Assembly (NCBI GenBank): GCA_900109895.1
Contig: FOBR01000008.1
Span: forward strand, 1 to 64,000
DNA: 64,000 nucleotides
Origin: a bacterium A37T11
GTDB lineage: Bacteria > Bacteroidota > Bacteroidia > Sphingobacteriales > Sphingobacteriaceae
Direction of reading: 5' to 3'
Shown: positions 58,175 through 64,000 of the stretch, piece by piece
Layout of the letters: each line of letters starts with the position of its first letter
Position numbering within the stretch: position 1 is the stretch's first letter
Program-made: the position numbers and the translations under genes
Notes under the pieces: model-generated
The model's input: the letters and a program-made list of their open reading frames with translations, nothing else
Told to the model about the DNA's origin: nothing
Database searches by the model: none

Positions 58175-59350
58175 TTGAAATGGGTCTATAAACTCTTACT
58201 GCTTGTTGCCGTCCAGATGGTTGCATGCGGTCCGGGACGAAAAGAAAAAATAGTAAAGGAACGTCAACGCACAGATAGCCTGCGTCTCATCTACGATCCG
58301 GCGAATGCAGATAAACGTATTGATGCCTTTATGCAACGCTTACATAGTCATTCTGGATTTAATGGCAATGTACTGGTAGCTAAAAAAGGCAAGATTATTT
58401 ATGAAAATTGTTTTGGCTGGGCCGATTACCTCCATCGGGATAGCCTAAAAATTGATTCCCGTTTTGAACTGGCTTCCATTTCAAAAACAATGACTGGCAT
58501 TGGTATTTTAATGCTGGTGGAAAAAGGAAAGTTAAAATTAGATCAAACAGTCAATGATTTTTACCCGGATTTCCCTTATCCGGGTATTACCATCAAGCAA
58601 TTATTGTCTCATCGTTCGGGATTGCCAAATTATGTATATTTTACGGATGATCTTTGGCCAGACAAGAAAAAGGGTATGTCTAATCAGGATGTTATGAAAT
58701 TACTGATAGAAAAAAAACCCGCAGCATATAGCAAGCCGGATGCCCGTTTTTTTTATAATAATAGCAATTTTATGGTTTTGGCCGCCATTATTGAAAAGGT
58801 AACCGGTGAGACCTATACGGCATATATGAAGGAAAATGTGTTTAATCCTGCCGGAATGAATCATACAGTTGTTTATTCAAAGGCCGATTACGAGAAAATA
58901 CCCGTGGATGTGGTAGGCCATGATCGTGTCTTCAGACGTTCTGTGGTTCAGGATTTCCATGACGGGCCCGTTGGTGATAAAGGGACATACAGTACAGTGG
59001 AAGATTTATTTTTACTTAATGAAGCGCTTAATGAGGGTCGTCTGCTAAAAAAAGAAACCCTGGATTCCGCTTATAAAGGTCGCAGTAAACCTATAAAGGA
59101 TTTGTTTAACTATGGTTATGGATGGCGCACATTTACCAAAGACAGCCATCAAGTGGTTTATCATACGGGGTGGTGGCATGGGTTTCGTCATATTTATGTA
59201 AGGGATCTAAGCGCAGATATCACCATTGTTTTGCTATCAAACCTGACTAACGGAAGTTTGACTCACTTGGATGAGCTTTACCAGATATTGGGAATACCGG
59301 TCATCCGCCAGGGCGCGTATGGTTCGGATGGGGATTATGTGGGGGAATGA
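58175..59350 (+). CDS. Beta-lactamase-family serine hydrolase lipoprotein
   Basis: A 391-residue serine hydrolase of the class C/PBP4-like group. TTG is the start: the first codons MKWVYKLLLLVAVQMVAC form a lipoprotein signal with Cys18, which would be lost with the next ATG. The active site is Ser101-X-X-Lys104 (SISK), the second motif YNN (194-196) and HTG in VVYHTGWWHG. Members include esterases, D-aminopeptidases and carboxypeptidases; without a specific match no substrate is claimed. It stands alone, followed by a 155-base gap. Confidence 0.85.
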   Translation: MKWVYKLLLLVAVQMVACGPGRKEKIVKERQRTDSLRLIYDPANADKRIDAFMQRLHSHSGFNGNVLVAKKGKIIYENCFGWADYLHRDSLKIDSRFELASISKTMTGIGILMLVEKGKLKLDQTVNDFYPDFPYPGITIKQLLSHRSGLPNYVYFTDDLWPDKKKGMSNQDVMKLLIEKKPAAYSKPDARFFYNNSNFMVLAAIIEKVTGETYTAYMKENVFNPAGMNHTVVYSKADYEKIPVDVVGHDRVFRRSVVQDFHDGPVGDKGTYSTVEDLFLLNEALNEGRLLKKETLDSAYKGRSKPIKDLFNYGYGWRTFTKDSHQVVYHTGWWHGFRHIYVRDLSADITIVLLSNLTNGSLTHLDELYQILGIPVIRQGAYGSDGDYVGE

Positions 59351-59505: not shown

Positions 59506-60321
59506 ATGACCGGGGATTTAGACAGGGATAGACCAGTTGTCAGACTTAGGGCATTCAGGGCAATTGACGATCCGGAAACTTGCGAGTTATTTATAAAGGG
59601 ACATGAACATGTCCTTACCAGCATAGGTGTTAAAAAAGTAACTTCTTCGAAAAATGACTGGATGTATAATCCTGCAGCGTTTGTCCTGATCGTTGAATCG
59701 CTTGATAGAAAAAAAGTGTATGGCGGGGTACGCATCCATGTGGCAGGGGGCACACAACCTCTACCCATTGAAGAAGCCACCGGCAATATGGATCCAGCGA
59801 TTTATGACCTCGTGTATAAATATGCATTAAGTGGCACGGGCGAGGGTTGCGGATTATGGAATTCACGGGAAATTGCCGGTTACGGCATTGGGAGCATTTT
59901 CCTAACCCGTGCAGGCGCCGCAATTTCTACCCAAATTGGCATTACATCTTTATTCGCTTTGTGCGCACCTTATACCGTCAAGCTGGCAGAGAGCGTGGGC
60001 TACCGTATAGAAACTAGCGTGGGCAATAATGGCACCTTTTATTATCCAAAGCTTGATCTTTTAGCAACAACAATGATCATGAAAGGGTTAAGCGACCTTA
60101 ATACGGCTAATCAGGAAAACAAAGAAGCTATTATGGAATTGCGCAGCAAATCAAATATCATACGCACAGAGGTGTTGCGCAACAAGCAAATCGAAATCCA
60201 CTACGAAACCGATATTCCAAATTTGGATAAATGGAGCCTTAAAGACACGATTGCCATACTTAAAAAATCTACCCAAAAAGCTTCAGTGAACGAACAAAAT
60301 TTAAACATTCTAAAAACTTAA
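59506..60321 (+). CDS. Uncharacterised GNAT-like (acyltransferase) protein
   Basis: A 271-residue soluble protein. Residues 55-190 look like a GNAT fold: a strand VYGGVRIHVAGG (71-82), then LWNSREIAGYG (118-126), a helix with STQIGITSLFALCAPYTVK and a final SVGYRIE. The W-x-S-R spacing recalls, at low similarity, the LuxI-type signal synthases, but catalytic residues cannot be assigned. The last 70 residues are helical and charged. It starts a short run with a methyltransferase (six-base gap), a sensor kinase and a receiver protein. A role in making a small signal molecule is inference. Confidence 0.5.
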   Translation: MTGDLDRDRPVVRLRAFRAIDDPETCELFIKGHEHVLTSIGVKKVTSSKNDWMYNPAAFVLIVESLDRKKVYGGVRIHVAGGTQPLPIEEATGNMDPAIYDLVYKYALSGTGEGCGLWNSREIAGYGIGSIFLTRAGAAISTQIGITSLFALCAPYTVKLAESVGYRIETSVGNNGTFYYPKLDLLATTMIMKGLSDLNTANQENKEAIMELRSKSNIIRTEVLRNKQIEIHYETDIPNLDKWSLKDTIAILKKSTQKASVNEQNLNILKT

Positions 60322-60327
60322 AGTATT

Positions 60328-61092
60328 ATGTCTACTAAACATTATAATGCCGGATACCTTGAAAATACCGCGGATTTTCTAAAAAACCTTAAACAGCAAT
60401 CATACGGTGGCTTTGCATCATTGCAAAAGGGAACATTAATCGACTTAGGCTGTGGGATAGGGGCTGACGCGATCAACCTTGCTAAAATTTTAGGTGAAAA
60501 GGTTAATGTGGTCGGCATTGATCATGACCAGGAACTACTTGACAAGGCGACCGAAAGTGCAATGGGCTTGCCAAATATCCGTTTCATAAAGAAGGAAGTC
60601 TGGGATATCCCATTTGAAGACAAGACTGTCTCCGGTGTTCGTGCGGAACGTTTGATCCAGCACCTTTCAAACCCTGAACAAACGTTTAAGGAGATATATC
60701 GGGTTTTAAAAGCAGGCCACCCAGTTGTAGTACTCGAAACCGTCTGGGATAGTCTCACATTTTATACCAAACATACAAGTATAGAACAACAAATAAGAAG
60801 CTATTTAACCGATAATAAGGTAAATAATGGGTGGGCAGCAAATAACTTAACATCTTATTTGAAAGATAGTAGTTTCAATGAAATTGAAGTAAACCGGTTT
60901 CCTCTGACAGGTAGGTCATTGAATGATGCCCGCCAATATCTTTGGATTGATAAGATTATGGAAGAAATGTTAACTGGAAGTTATATAGACCAACAAGAAT
61001 ACGATGTGTTTAATGAGGCGTTGACAGAGGCCGATAACGATAGTTTTTTTCTCTGCTCGCTGGATCTTCTCTTGGTGTCTGCCTTAAAATAG
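60328..61092 (+). CDS. Class I SAM-dependent methyltransferase
   Basis: A 254-residue Rossmann methyltransferase. Motif I LIDLGCGIGADAINL (36-50), motif II VVGIDHDQELLDKA (61-74) and the DIPFEDKTVSGVRAERLIQHL stretch are the usual SAM-binding parts. No known ubiquinone or biotin family signature was seen. Directly between the GNAT-like and sensor-kinase genes (gaps of six and ten bases), it could modify the product of the former; that is inference. Confidence 0.85.
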   Translation: MSTKHYNAGYLENTADFLKNLKQQSYGGFASLQKGTLIDLGCGIGADAINLAKILGEKVNVVGIDHDQELLDKATESAMGLPNIRFIKKEVWDIPFEDKTVSGVRAERLIQHLSNPEQTFKEIYRVLKAGHPVVVLETVWDSLTFYTKHTSIEQQIRSYLTDNKVNNGWAANNLTSYLKDSSFNEIEVNRFPLTGRSLNDARQYLWIDKIMEEMLTGSYIDQQEYDVFNEALTEADNDSFFLCSLDLLLVSALK

Positions 61093-61102
61093 TTGTCATA
61101 TA

Positions 61103-63256
61103 ATGATTAGGGCTTCCCACAACATTTTTATTTGCCTGGTGGCAGGCTTCTTTTTTCATTTTGATGCTAAGGCTCAAATGGTCATAACAGACACTACCGA
61201 AAAAATAGCCATCGGGAAATATCTATCAATATTTTCAGGCAATCCCGCCGCTGGTATTGGGGACGTAATTAAATCCAACAGGTTTAGAAAAATCGGCAGG
61301 ACAGTCCCTAATTTGGGAATTTCTAACTTAAATAACTGGCTCAAATTTACAGCATCAAACCATAGCCAGACTTCTCATTTTATATTGGAAATCGCCTATC
61401 CGATTTTGGATGAAGTGGAATTATATATTCCTGAAGGGGAAAACCGATACAAATCAGTATTTATGGGTGAGAACCGACCTTTTAAGACTCGGAAATACTT
61501 TTTACCAAATTATTTATTTGACATATATATCCCTCCCTCTTCGACAAGGACTTTTTTTTTGAGAGTCAGGAGCACTGAGCAGGTCATTTTGCCCATTTAC
61601 CTTGGCACAACGGCAATCCTTTTGGAGAAAGTCAATATGGATCACGTCATTAACGGAATTTTCATCGGGGTCGTAATGATAATGGTTCTATACAATTTGT
61701 TCCTATTTTTTTCTGTAAGAGATACTAGTTATATATATTATGTGTTATATGTTGGCTTTGCCGGACTAACCCAGATGAGCATACGGGGCTATAATTTTCA
61801 ATATCTATGGCCCAATTCCCCTGAATTTGAACAAAAAAGTGCCATCCTGTTTGGATGTTTATCAGGAATAGCGGCGCTGATGTTTGCAAATAATTTCTTG
61901 CAATTAAGAACAAATGTTCCTATATTCAAATTATTCCTGAATTCTTTCATAGCCCTTTTTGCCATTGGTTTTTTGTTAACCATATTTGGTTTATCACAAT
62001 ATGGGTTCATAATTATGCAATTTACAACCGGAATTGGATCCCTGACTGTTTTGATCATCTCATTCAGGGTGATGGCGAAGGGGTACAGTCCGGCGAAATT
62101 TTTTGTGTTTGGCTGGTCTGTATTATTATTAGGCTCCATTATATTCCTGTTAAAAGATTATGGAGTTCTTCCATATAACATCTTTACAAGTTATTCTGTC
62201 CAGGGGGCATCGGCAATAGAAATGGCCCTTTTATCCTTTGGTTTAGCCTATAGTATAAATATATTAAAGCAAGAAAAGGAATTATCTCAAGCCGAGGCGC
62301 TTCGGGTTTCAAAAGAAAACGAAAGGCTGATCCGCGAACAGAATGAAGTGCTTGAAAGAAAAGTTGGGGAGCGCACCAGTGAGCTCAAGGAATCAAATAT
62401 AAACCTGGAACAGGCCATGACCAATTTAAAGGAAGCTCAATCTCAGTTGGTCGAATCAGAAAAAATGGCTTCCCTTGGACAGCTGACGGCTGGTGTGGCA
62501 CATGAAATCAATAACCCTATTAATTTTGTAACTTCTAATGTAAAACCATTAAGGAGGGACTTGAGCGTGGTATTGGAAGCCCTGCAGGAAATTGAAAAAA
62601 TCGGCTTAAGTGACCTATCAGTTAGTGAAAAATCAAAGCAAATGAAGGCCTACAAGGCTCAGCTTGATTTTGACTATCTTAAAACGGAGATAGACCATCT
62701 TCTTAACGGCATGTACGAAGGGGCTACCAGAACTTCTGAAATTGTTAAAAGTTTACGCATATTTTCCCGGGTAGATGAAGATGACCTGAAAATGGCTAAT
62801 ATTAATGAATGTATGGAGTCAACACTTGTGATTCTTAATAGTTTACTTAACGATAAGAATGTATTTGTTGAAAAAGATTTAGGCGATTTGCCCGATATAG
62901 AATGTTATCCGGGCAAGCTGAATCAGGTTTTCCTGAATATTATGAGTAATGCTATATATGCGATTCATAAGCAACATAGTTTGGATGGAAATGGTAAACT
63001 TTATATTAGTACCAGGGCGAAGCAAGCGTATATTGAAGTACTTTTTAGGGATAATGGTATAGGTATGGACGAAAGGACAAAAAGTAAGATGTTTGAGCCT
63101 TTTTTTACGACTAAGGATGTAGGAGAAGGCACGGGATTAGGAATGTCCATTGTCTATAACACGGTTCAAAAACACAATGGTAAAATAGAGGTTACTACTG
63201 CACCGGGGGAGGGAGCTTCTTTCATTTTAAAATTTCCATTACGCCAAAAAAATTAA
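61103..63256 (+). CDS. 7TMR-DISM sensor histidine kinase
   Basis: A 717-residue membrane kinase. A signal peptide (1-24) is followed by a beta-rich periplasmic 7TMR-DISMED2-type sensor (about 30-170), seven helices (about 182-390), a coiled coil (391-455) and HisKA with phosphoacceptor His467 (GVAHEINNPINF). The C-terminal HATPase has FLNIMSNAIYAI, RDNGIGMDE and GTGLGMSIVYN, the N, G1 and G2 boxes. The periplasmic DISMED2 module is a jelly-roll carbohydrate- or small-ligand-binding type. It belongs to the run beginning at 59506 and may feed the receiver protein that follows 98 bases later. Confidence 0.92.
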   Translation: MIRASHNIFICLVAGFFFHFDAKAQMVITDTTEKIAIGKYLSIFSGNPAAGIGDVIKSNRFRKIGRTVPNLGISNLNNWLKFTASNHSQTSHFILEIAYPILDEVELYIPEGENRYKSVFMGENRPFKTRKYFLPNYLFDIYIPPSSTRTFFLRVRSTEQVILPIYLGTTAILLEKVNMDHVINGIFIGVVMIMVLYNLFLFFSVRDTSYIYYVLYVGFAGLTQMSIRGYNFQYLWPNSPEFEQKSAILFGCLSGIAALMFANNFLQLRTNVPIFKLFLNSFIALFAIGFLLTIFGLSQYGFIIMQFTTGIGSLTVLIISFRVMAKGYSPAKFFVFGWSVLLLGSIIFLLKDYGVLPYNIFTSYSVQGASAIEMALLSFGLAYSINILKQEKELSQAEALRVSKENERLIREQNEVLERKVGERTSELKESNINLEQAMTNLKEAQSQLVESEKMASLGQLTAGVAHEINNPINFVTSNVKPLRRDLSVVLEALQEIEKIGLSDLSVSEKSKQMKAYKAQLDFDYLKTEIDHLLNGMYEGATRTSEIVKSLRIFSRVDEDDLKMANINECMESTLVILNSLLNDKNVFVEKDLGDLPDIECYPGKLNQVFLNIMSNAIYAIHKQHSLDGNGKLYISTRAKQAYIEVLFRDNGIGMDERTKSKMFEPFFTTKDVGEGTGLGMSIVYNTVQKHNGKIEVTTAPGEGASFILKFPLRQKN

Positions 63257-63354
63257 GTGGGATCGTGATTTTTCTAAACAAAATAGTAATTTTACATGTT
63301 AAACGGCCTCTCGGGTAAATATAGCTTGCGGATAGATTAAATTTGGCACAAATC

Positions 63355-64000
63355 ATGGCAGAAAAAATAAAGATCTTATATGTTGATGATGAGATTAATA
63401 ATCTCATTTCATTTAATGCGTCATTCCGCTTAGATTTTAATATTTTGACGGCAGAAAATACTACTAAAGCTGAAGCGTTACTTGCCGAGCACCCTGATAT
63501 CCGGATCGTTTTTAGCGATCAGCGAATGCCGGATAAAACAGGAGTTGAGTTTTTGAGCGAAATCCGGTACCGATATCCAAATCCTATCCGAATCCTTTTA
63601 ACGGCTTATGCAGATTTGTCCACTGTAATTGGGGCGATAAATAAAGGAAATATTTTCCGTTTTGTGAGCAAGCCCTGGATTGAAGCTGAAATACTTTCAG
63701 CCATTGAAGAAGCCAATAAATTTTACCTTGCCAATTCCATGTTAATTGTTAAAAATGAAGAATTGCAATTAGCATATGATGAGTTGGATAAATTTGCTTA
63801 TAGTGTAAGCCATGACCTTCGAGAACCTTTATCCAGCATTTTATCAGCAGTGAGGCTTGCCCGTGAATTTGATTCACTGACCGATATCCATGACCTTCTT
63901 AAGCTGATGGAAAAATCAGTTATTAAATTAAATGCGTTTATATTGAGCCTGCATGATTATTATGCCACTCAACGGGGAGAATTAACTATTCGGGATATTT
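63355..64000 (+). CDS. Receiver domain plus histidine kinase (cut by window edge)
   Basis: At least 215 codons, open at the right edge. The receiver (1-120) has DD at 11-12, the phosphoacceptor Asp55 in FSDQRMPD and Lys in VSKPW. From about residue 135 on, a helix with FAYSVSHDLREPLSS supplies a HisKA phosphoacceptor His. The order receiver-then-kinase marks a hybrid that takes a phosphate and passes it on. A -7-like TAAATTTG at 63338-63345 lies just upstream but lacks a well-placed TTG. No DNA-binding domain is seen in the visible part. Confidence 0.85.
   Translation, partial: MAEKIKILYVDDEINNLISFNASFRLDFNILTAENTTKAEALLAEHPDIRIVFSDQRMPDKTGVEFLSEIRYRYPNPIRILLTAYADLSTVIGAINKGNIFRFVSKPWIEAEILSAIEEANKFYLANSMLIVKNEELQLAYDELDKFAYSVSHDLREPLSSILSAVRLAREFDSLTDIHDLLKLMEKSVIKLNAFILSLHDYYATQRGELTIRDI

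Follow-up and report, generated by a model that had tools for sequence, protein, structure and literature searches.

The locus at the end of the window

We analyzed a module of four genes at the end of a 64,000-nucleotide stretch of DNA (the window) of contig FOBR01000008.1 from the Sphingobacteriaceae bacterium A37T11. According to the list of open reading frames, all four lie on the forward strand, in the order G (a predicted N-acyl amino acid synthase), X (an exchangeable second enzyme, here a methyltransferase), a 7TMR-DISM sensor histidine kinase, and a gene for a receiver joined to a histidine kinase (RR-HK). Comparison with relatives showed that X, as far as the methyltransferase and ThiF types are concerned, and the sensor half of the DISM kinase switch together while the kinase half stays. 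We consider it likely that this is a self-signal module, in which the DISM kinase reads an N-acyl amino acid derivative produced by G and X. The features are as follows.

59506..60321, + strand: G, GNAT with a predicted FeeM/LuxI fold, predicted N-acyl amino acid synthase, 271 aa; the constant gene of the module
60328..61092, + strand: X, class I S-adenosylmethionine methyltransferase (Pfam), 254 aa; relatives have instead ThiF, ThiF-nitroreductase, an ICMT-like protein, an FAD oxidase, or nothing
61103..63256, + strand: 7TMR-DISM sensor histidine kinase (Pfam), 717 aa
61190..62251, + strand: sensor half of this kinase (DISMED2 and 7TM, residues 30–383), which co-switches with X
62090..62317, + strand: change-point zone of 17 different-class pairs (residues 330–405), spanning the final stretch of the 7TM and the beginning of the kinase part
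62465..63253, + strand: kinase half (residues 455–717), the constant-part control
63343..64000, + strand, continuing beyond the window to about 64440: RR-HK, receiver and histidine kinase, starting at TTG 63343 or ATG 63355

A preliminary description of this DNA had listed four co-directional genes with gaps of 6, 10, and 98 bases, the last three coding for a methyltransferase, a 7TMR-DISM sensor kinase, and a receiver plus kinase. The gaps are correct with ATG 63355 as the fourth start (the last gap is 86 bases with TTG 63343), and the Pfam domains agreed with all three assignments. The second product is a class I methyltransferase. The third contains 7TMR-DISMED2, 7TMR-DISM_7TM, HisKA (26.4 bits, slightly below the cut-off of 26.9), and HATPase, with the two receptor domains (PF07696, E 2.7e-28; PF07695, E 2.3e-50) ahead of the signaling domain; it is the sole PF07695 match found in the source genome. 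The complete RR-HK (L002:8343–9440, 365 aa counted from TTG) has a receiver, HisKA, and HATPase.

Constant gene G and exchangeable gene X

The product of G was modeled with AlphaFold2 on a 40-row alignment (pLDDT 84.3, pTM 0.83), and the model showed a GNAT fold. Comparison by Foldseek and VIA-align gave FeeM (2g0b) as the best match (Z 16.4 over 181 residues, 2.7 Å), followed by the acyl-homoserine lactone (AHL) synthases BjaI (Z 14.8) and LasI (Z 14.4). As far as a prediction can show, G has a GNAT fold of the FeeM or signal-synthase type, as the preliminary description had supposed in pointing to a GNAT-like core, and we infer that its activity may be the N-acylation of an amino acid. The W-x-S-R segment, also pointed out there as reminiscent of signal synthases, is present in G as W118-N119-S120-R121, but among 14 homologues only the first two residues, W118 and N119, never change, and S120 and R121 are variable.

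Sequence searches placed G in no family. Pfam gave nothing better than E 0.19, and the LuxI family (which we take to be PF00765) was not among the matches at E up to 1; NCBIfam, PHROGs, a sequence search of the PDB, and a plasmid collection gave no match, and a profile search of the PDB returned just one ribosomal protein (E 0.47). In viral contigs, 19 stretches fitted the pattern for G, and none encodes a relative. The lack of a family match would suit a housekeeping acetyltransferase in an accidental neighborhood. We rejected this identity on the patchy and linked occurrence of G (13 of 395 genomes drawn from Bacteroidota, in strict linkage), and together with the FeeM/LuxI-like model these features make it most improbable; in the structure and profile searches with the 271-aa protein, FeeM ranked top structurally and no housekeeping acetyltransferase family matched.

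Within the window's own family, G was found in 151 of 301 genomes, in a second family in 77 of 244, and among 60 relatives in 30, the source genome included. The best 80 of 448 matches in a scan of named genomes were mostly from Sphingobacterium, and also from Pedobacter, Mucilaginibacter, Daejeonella, and others. A 7TMR-DISM kinase stood beside G in 202 of 208 locus readings, and the remaining six were cut off by the end of the sequence. The readings comprise the 108 loci with G called of a first set of 110, the other two of that set (L061 and L127, read separately, both with X and a DISM kinase), nine extra loci from the phylum draw, and 89 second-family or divergent own-family loci (90, less L313, in which no G was called); ten readings are repeats. 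In the first 108 loci, the kinase was present in 106, with L058 and L121 cut by contig ends, and X lay downstream of G in 96 and upstream in 12. The results showed that G and the DISM kinase are constant neighbors in relatives, which is more than chance.

The same linkage was seen in the 60 relatives. Every one of the 30 genomes with G had a sensor score of at least 160 bits, and none of the 30 without exceeded 123 bits; the presence line of 150 bits between them was chosen after viewing the scores. At E 1e-40, RR-HK was found in 26 of the 30 genomes with G and in one of the 30 without, the latter being a match to the kinase half. In one genome (L298 and L215), a tandem pair of G copies lies ahead of the kinase.

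The co-occurrence of G, methyltransferase, and DISM kinase that had been put forward held for G and the kinase, but the methyltransferase was present in only 40 of the first 108 loci and 6 of the 89. It is not a fixed part of the module; it is one of several X enzymes, the commonest being a ThiF cyclase of the oxazolone type. In the first 108 loci, the other X enzymes were ThiF (36) and ThiF fused to a nitroreductase (32); methyltransferase and ThiF never occurred together in one locus, and X adjoined G except in L051 and L056, which have one gene between. In L056 (8358–10666), the ThiF-nitroreductase frame is broken into pieces of 545 and 227 aa and was counted as ThiF. The 89 loci had ThiF-nitroreductase (46), ThiF (15), the nitroreductase end only (2), ICMT (7), class I methyltransferase (6), an FAD-linked oxidase (PF01565; 2), or none (11). 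In two of the nine phylum-draw loci, X was a membrane methyltransferase resembling ICMT (PF04140, E 1.5e-19 and 3.5e-18), both proteins scoring below the cut-off of 160 for NCBIfam NF040696 (98 and 96 bits).

Three ThiF proteins were scanned and matched NF005901, the 'Rv1355c family' (cut-off 476): the fused protein of L047 with 768.9 bits, and the ThiF-only proteins of L035 and L060 with 467.5 and 410.4 bits, below the cut-off. The ThiF signature residues, e.g. the C-D aspartate, were kept in 108 of 109 proteins. Among the 395 Bacteroidota genomes, all ten TrzS-type matches of at least 146 bits lay within about 160 bp of G; the other three genomes with G had the methyltransferase (the source genome) or ICMT (two).

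Joint exchange of X and the sensor half

Pairs and trees were computed from 88 complete unique loci of the 108 (9 repeats and 11 incomplete loci were left out), comprising 34 of the methyltransferase, 30 of the ThiF, and 24 of the ThiF-nitroreductase class. At a G identity of 80–85%, pairs of the same class (n=66) had 51% identity in DISMED and 76% in the 7TM, whereas pairs of different class (n=43) had 24% and 30%; the kinase part (74%) and RR-HK (68%) were the same in both groups. A single change of the methyltransferase/ThiF label was enough for the sensor tree (support 99). The same label needed 14 changes on the kinase plus RR-HK tree, at least nine of them forced by starred branches, and 14 on the G tree, at least five forced. 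A single methyltransferase clade was rejected (p-AU 5e-10 for kinase plus RR-HK and 2e-81 for G) on 32 rows that were picked as close different-class pairs, so that change counts there are no fair sample.

With 160 of 162 loci (L281 and L287 were set aside as contig-edge), the methyltransferase label changed 1, 19, and 15 times and the ThiF label 3, 24, and 16 times on the sensor, kinase, and G trees, respectively; for L186, L187, and L289, the label (ICMT or FAD) was assigned by hand from domain results. Within classes, the distances of X and sensor correlated after removal of G, kinase, and RR-HK (partial r 0.48–0.81, p 0.0005), and with G and sensor controlled for, the partial correlation between X and kinase was –0.12 to 0.34. 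For methyltransferase versus ThiF, the module behaved as a specificity cassette, in which the sensor half co-varies with the signal-making gene and the kinase half does not.

The exchange has its break-points close to where G ends on one side and around the end of the 7TM on the other. All 17 disjoint different-class pairs showed a jump of identity within the kinase at residues 330–405 (10 at 330–350, 4 at 376–377, and 3 at 392–405; the Pfam 7TM domain ends at 383). The log-likelihood gain at the jump was 55–174, compared with a mean of 32 in 32 same-class pairs, which retained 57% identity in DISMED and 72% in the 7TM (kinase plus RR-HK 82% vs 75%). One pair of Sphingobacterium loci at the same chromosomal site, from S. 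paucimobilis HER1398 (methyltransferase; L098) and S. tabacisoli (ThiF; L082), was 97.2% identical in DNA over 3.7 kb up to a point some 108 bases short of the end of G; X and the sensor were not alignable by blastn, and alignment resumed at about kinase codon 388, with 86.1% identity over 5.2 kb.

Such a pattern could also arise by hitch-hiking, if recombination tracts that start in the conserved parts of G and the kinase carry X and the sensor along and the ligand is unrelated, e.g. a sugar. Carbohydrate binding is reported for the DISMED2 domain of NicD (excerpt of PMC8544897), and in loci with the order X-G-kinase the sensor tracks the adjacent G (partial r 0.40) above X (0.21). However, among the 88 loci, with at least nine label changes on the kinase tree, none pairs a methyltransferase gene with a ThiF-type sensor; all 17 pairs have their identity jump inside the kinase gene, close to where the 7TM ends, and the presence of the sensor is tied to that of G. 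We regard hitch-hiking as improbable.

Gene linkage accounts for part of the co-variation, since the sensors of X-G-kinase loci track G more. In G-X-kinase loci, the sensor tracks X (0.55 for ThiF and 0.87 for methyltransferase) above G (0.08 and 0.26), and X adjoins the sensor-coding end of the kinase gene. Adjacency thus matters, though both neighbors, G and X, shape the product. These observations, together with the NicD report, weigh against a sensor matched to the product, as do the following. In the ThiF types, X tracks the kinase half with G and sensor removed (0.38 and 0.39; 0.34 in the within-class test); for the methyltransferase type, the corresponding partial r is –0.06. At a G identity of 60–65%, the contrast between same-class and different-class pairs was small (DISMED 32 vs 28% and 7TM 41 vs 33%). 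The ICMT loci and those with no X were intermixed on the sensor tree (five changes each, the same as on the kinase tree), and the sensor separated ThiF from ThiF-nitroreductase no better than the kinase did (five extra changes each).

Proposed acyl amino acid signal and known systems

We take the kinase to read the product of the pathway because its sensor half is exchanged with X, and this is the strongest evidence that we have. We infer the identity of the product, its export, its binding by the sensor, the route of phosphotransfer, and its use between cells. G would couple an acyl chain to an amino acid, and X would modify this product, probably at the carboxylate. ThiF would adenylate and cyclize it to an oxazolone, which a fused nitroreductase could desaturate, and an ICMT-like enzyme, or the class I methyltransferase of the window, would form a methyl ester. 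The neutral amphiphile may leave the cell or remain in the envelope, and would bind the DISMED2/7TM half of the kinase, which would pass the signal to RR-HK and small receivers. A lineage would switch to another dialect when X and the sensor half are replaced jointly and G, the kinase half, and RR-HK are kept.

ThiF adenylates carboxylates, and ICMT is named as a carboxyl methyltransferase. Because these two alternatives belong to carboxylate-acting families, the class I methyltransferase of the window probably acts on the carboxylate as well, and its product is probably a methyl ester, with an oxazolone predicted for the ThiF types. A structure search with the methyltransferase gave 3mgg, OxaG, and RoqN at the top (Z 22.5–24.5) among many class I methyltransferases, and a sequence match to LahSB was set aside as no proof of substrate by itself. 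N-acylation and cyclization by ThiF have been established elsewhere for homologous or analogous enzymes: Rv1355c is TrzS, which cyclizes and then desaturates the N-acyl tryptophan made by TrzA (excerpt of PMC12856293), and Tyz follows the same gene logic, which is also proposed for the stieleriacines and for related N-acyl tyrosines (excerpts of PMC10404671 and PMC12479983).

Further points count against the proposed signal. The Pfam FeeM family (PF21926) did not match G at E up to 1. Because this and the LuxI family match failed, we did not file G in either family. The margin of FeeM in the structural comparison is modest, since generic GNATs reach Z 14.3 (1xeb), about 2 below FeeM. The PDB neighbors of the methyltransferase leave its substrate unfixed, and nine of the 89 loci had no recognizable X beside G after inspection (dropped from the 11 were L215, whose genome has a ThiF-nitroreductase upstream in L298, and the contig-edge locus L281). 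No output domain was found by Pfam in RR-HK or the neighboring receiver. Tryptazolones are commoner inside cells than outside, and acyl-tryptophan is found mainly in the supernatant (excerpt of PMC12856293).

The last finding would also fit a product that is an envelope lipid and carries no message, with a kinase that senses its own lipid, or the absence of it, to balance synthesis. X and sensor would co-evolve as the sensor must recognize the lipid, and the co-switch data fit this explanation equally well. The module is usually accompanied by RR-HK and one or two receivers, which goes somewhat beyond the needs of single-operon feedback, and we regard the lipid explanation as unlikely, though it is the likeliest of the alternatives. 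A small antibiotic operon, in which an N-acyl amino acid derivative hits competitors while its production, or self-protection, is under the control of the kinase, seems less probable than either this or hitch-hiking. The stieleriacines and related N-acyl amino acids are reported to be antimicrobial (excerpt of PMC12856293), but the co-switch of sensor and X is harder to explain on such a basis, and the genes flanking the module differ in size and strand among loci.

The self-signal module resembles the TrzAS/TyzACB/OxzAB pathways for N-acyl oxazolones in Mycobacterium and Pseudoalteromonas, in which an acyltransferase gene lies beside a ThiF cyclase that is often fused to a nitroreductase-type oxidase. 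Most relatives have an X that matches NF005901, i.e. a ThiF of the Rv1355c/TrzS family beside an acyltransferase. The window locus, in contrast, has a methyltransferase in place of ThiF, and it was not filed as an oxazolone cluster because the source genome has no NF005901 match over the cut-off (a generic match of 24 bits lies on a different contig). The physiological role of N-acyl oxazolones was called a major unresolved question in 2025 (excerpt of PMC12856293), and the main text of that paper has no words beginning with kinase, sensor, two-component, Bacteroidetes, Sphingobac, or Chitinophag. With a receptor kinase traveling alongside the pathway, this question would become testable in ordinary laboratory bacteria. 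Among the matches listed in our literature searches (CC-licensed PMC papers), there was no publication on a module of G, X, and DISM kinase.

G is like the FeeM/NasY N-acyl amino acid synthases in its predicted fold, but without a PF21926 match; it shares a related GNAT fold with the LuxI-type AHL synthases (Z 14–15 for BjaI and LasI), but it has no LuxI Pfam match and its gene partner is a membrane kinase. A synthase gene also lies beside a sensor kinase in Vibrio CqsA-CqsS and Legionella LqsA-LqsS, whose synthases are pyridoxal phosphate enzymes, unlike the GNAT G. The Roseovarius N-acyl alanine methyl esters (NAMEs) are the sort of compound that the methyltransferase and ICMT types are predicted to make, and no candidate synthase genes were found there (excerpt of PMC11580390).

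Specificity cassettes occur in Staphylococcus agr and Bacillus ComQXP. In agr, a hypervariable region in agrB, agrD, and agrC sets the specificity (excerpt of PMC10482373), so that, as here, the gene that makes the signal co-varies with part of the sensor kinase. The agr signal is a peptide, whereas here a small-molecule tailoring enzyme changes, and the alternatives are non-homologous. The chances are about even that the module represents widespread cell–cell signaling in Gram-negative bacteria, with small-molecule pherotypes that arise by a swap of a non-homologous tailoring enzyme together with the 7TM sensor half; the dialects would be oxazolones, dehydro-oxazolones, carboxyl methyl esters, oxidized products, and free N-acyl amino acids, and a receptor for oxazolones would be included. 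If this is true, Bacteroidota gain a signal system of their own, and swapping an enzyme plus half of a receptor can switch small-molecule specificity. The co-exchange of the last pathway enzyme and the sensing half suggests that a chemical language here awaits description.

Some neighboring and plasmid genes were also recorded. The next gene after RR-HK, on the opposite strand (L002:9447–9905, 152 aa), encodes a receiver-only protein; a homologue adjoins the module in many relatives, usually upstream and on the opposite strand in X-G-kinase loci. Upstream of G in the window is a beta-lactamase-family (PF00144) gene (58175–59350) with a lipobox-like start by eye, and the upstream neighbors of G in relatives differ from it in size. 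On plasmids, a single Nitratidesulfovibrio protein of 974 aa (L197:2774–5695), encoded beside PEP-CTERM genes, combines FeeM, ThiF, and nitroreductase, and this fusion speaks for an N-acyl amino acid derivative as the product of G and X. A Streptomyces ThiF (42% identical to the X of L047) overlaps a GNAT of Acetyltransf_3 (L195:5917–7715) and is perhaps another oxazolone-type pair. The Mycobacterium trzAS locus is reported beside c-di-GMP genes (excerpt of PMC12856293), and on a Rhodococcus plasmid an Rv1355c-type gene lies near a GGDEF gene (L196:1895–6040).

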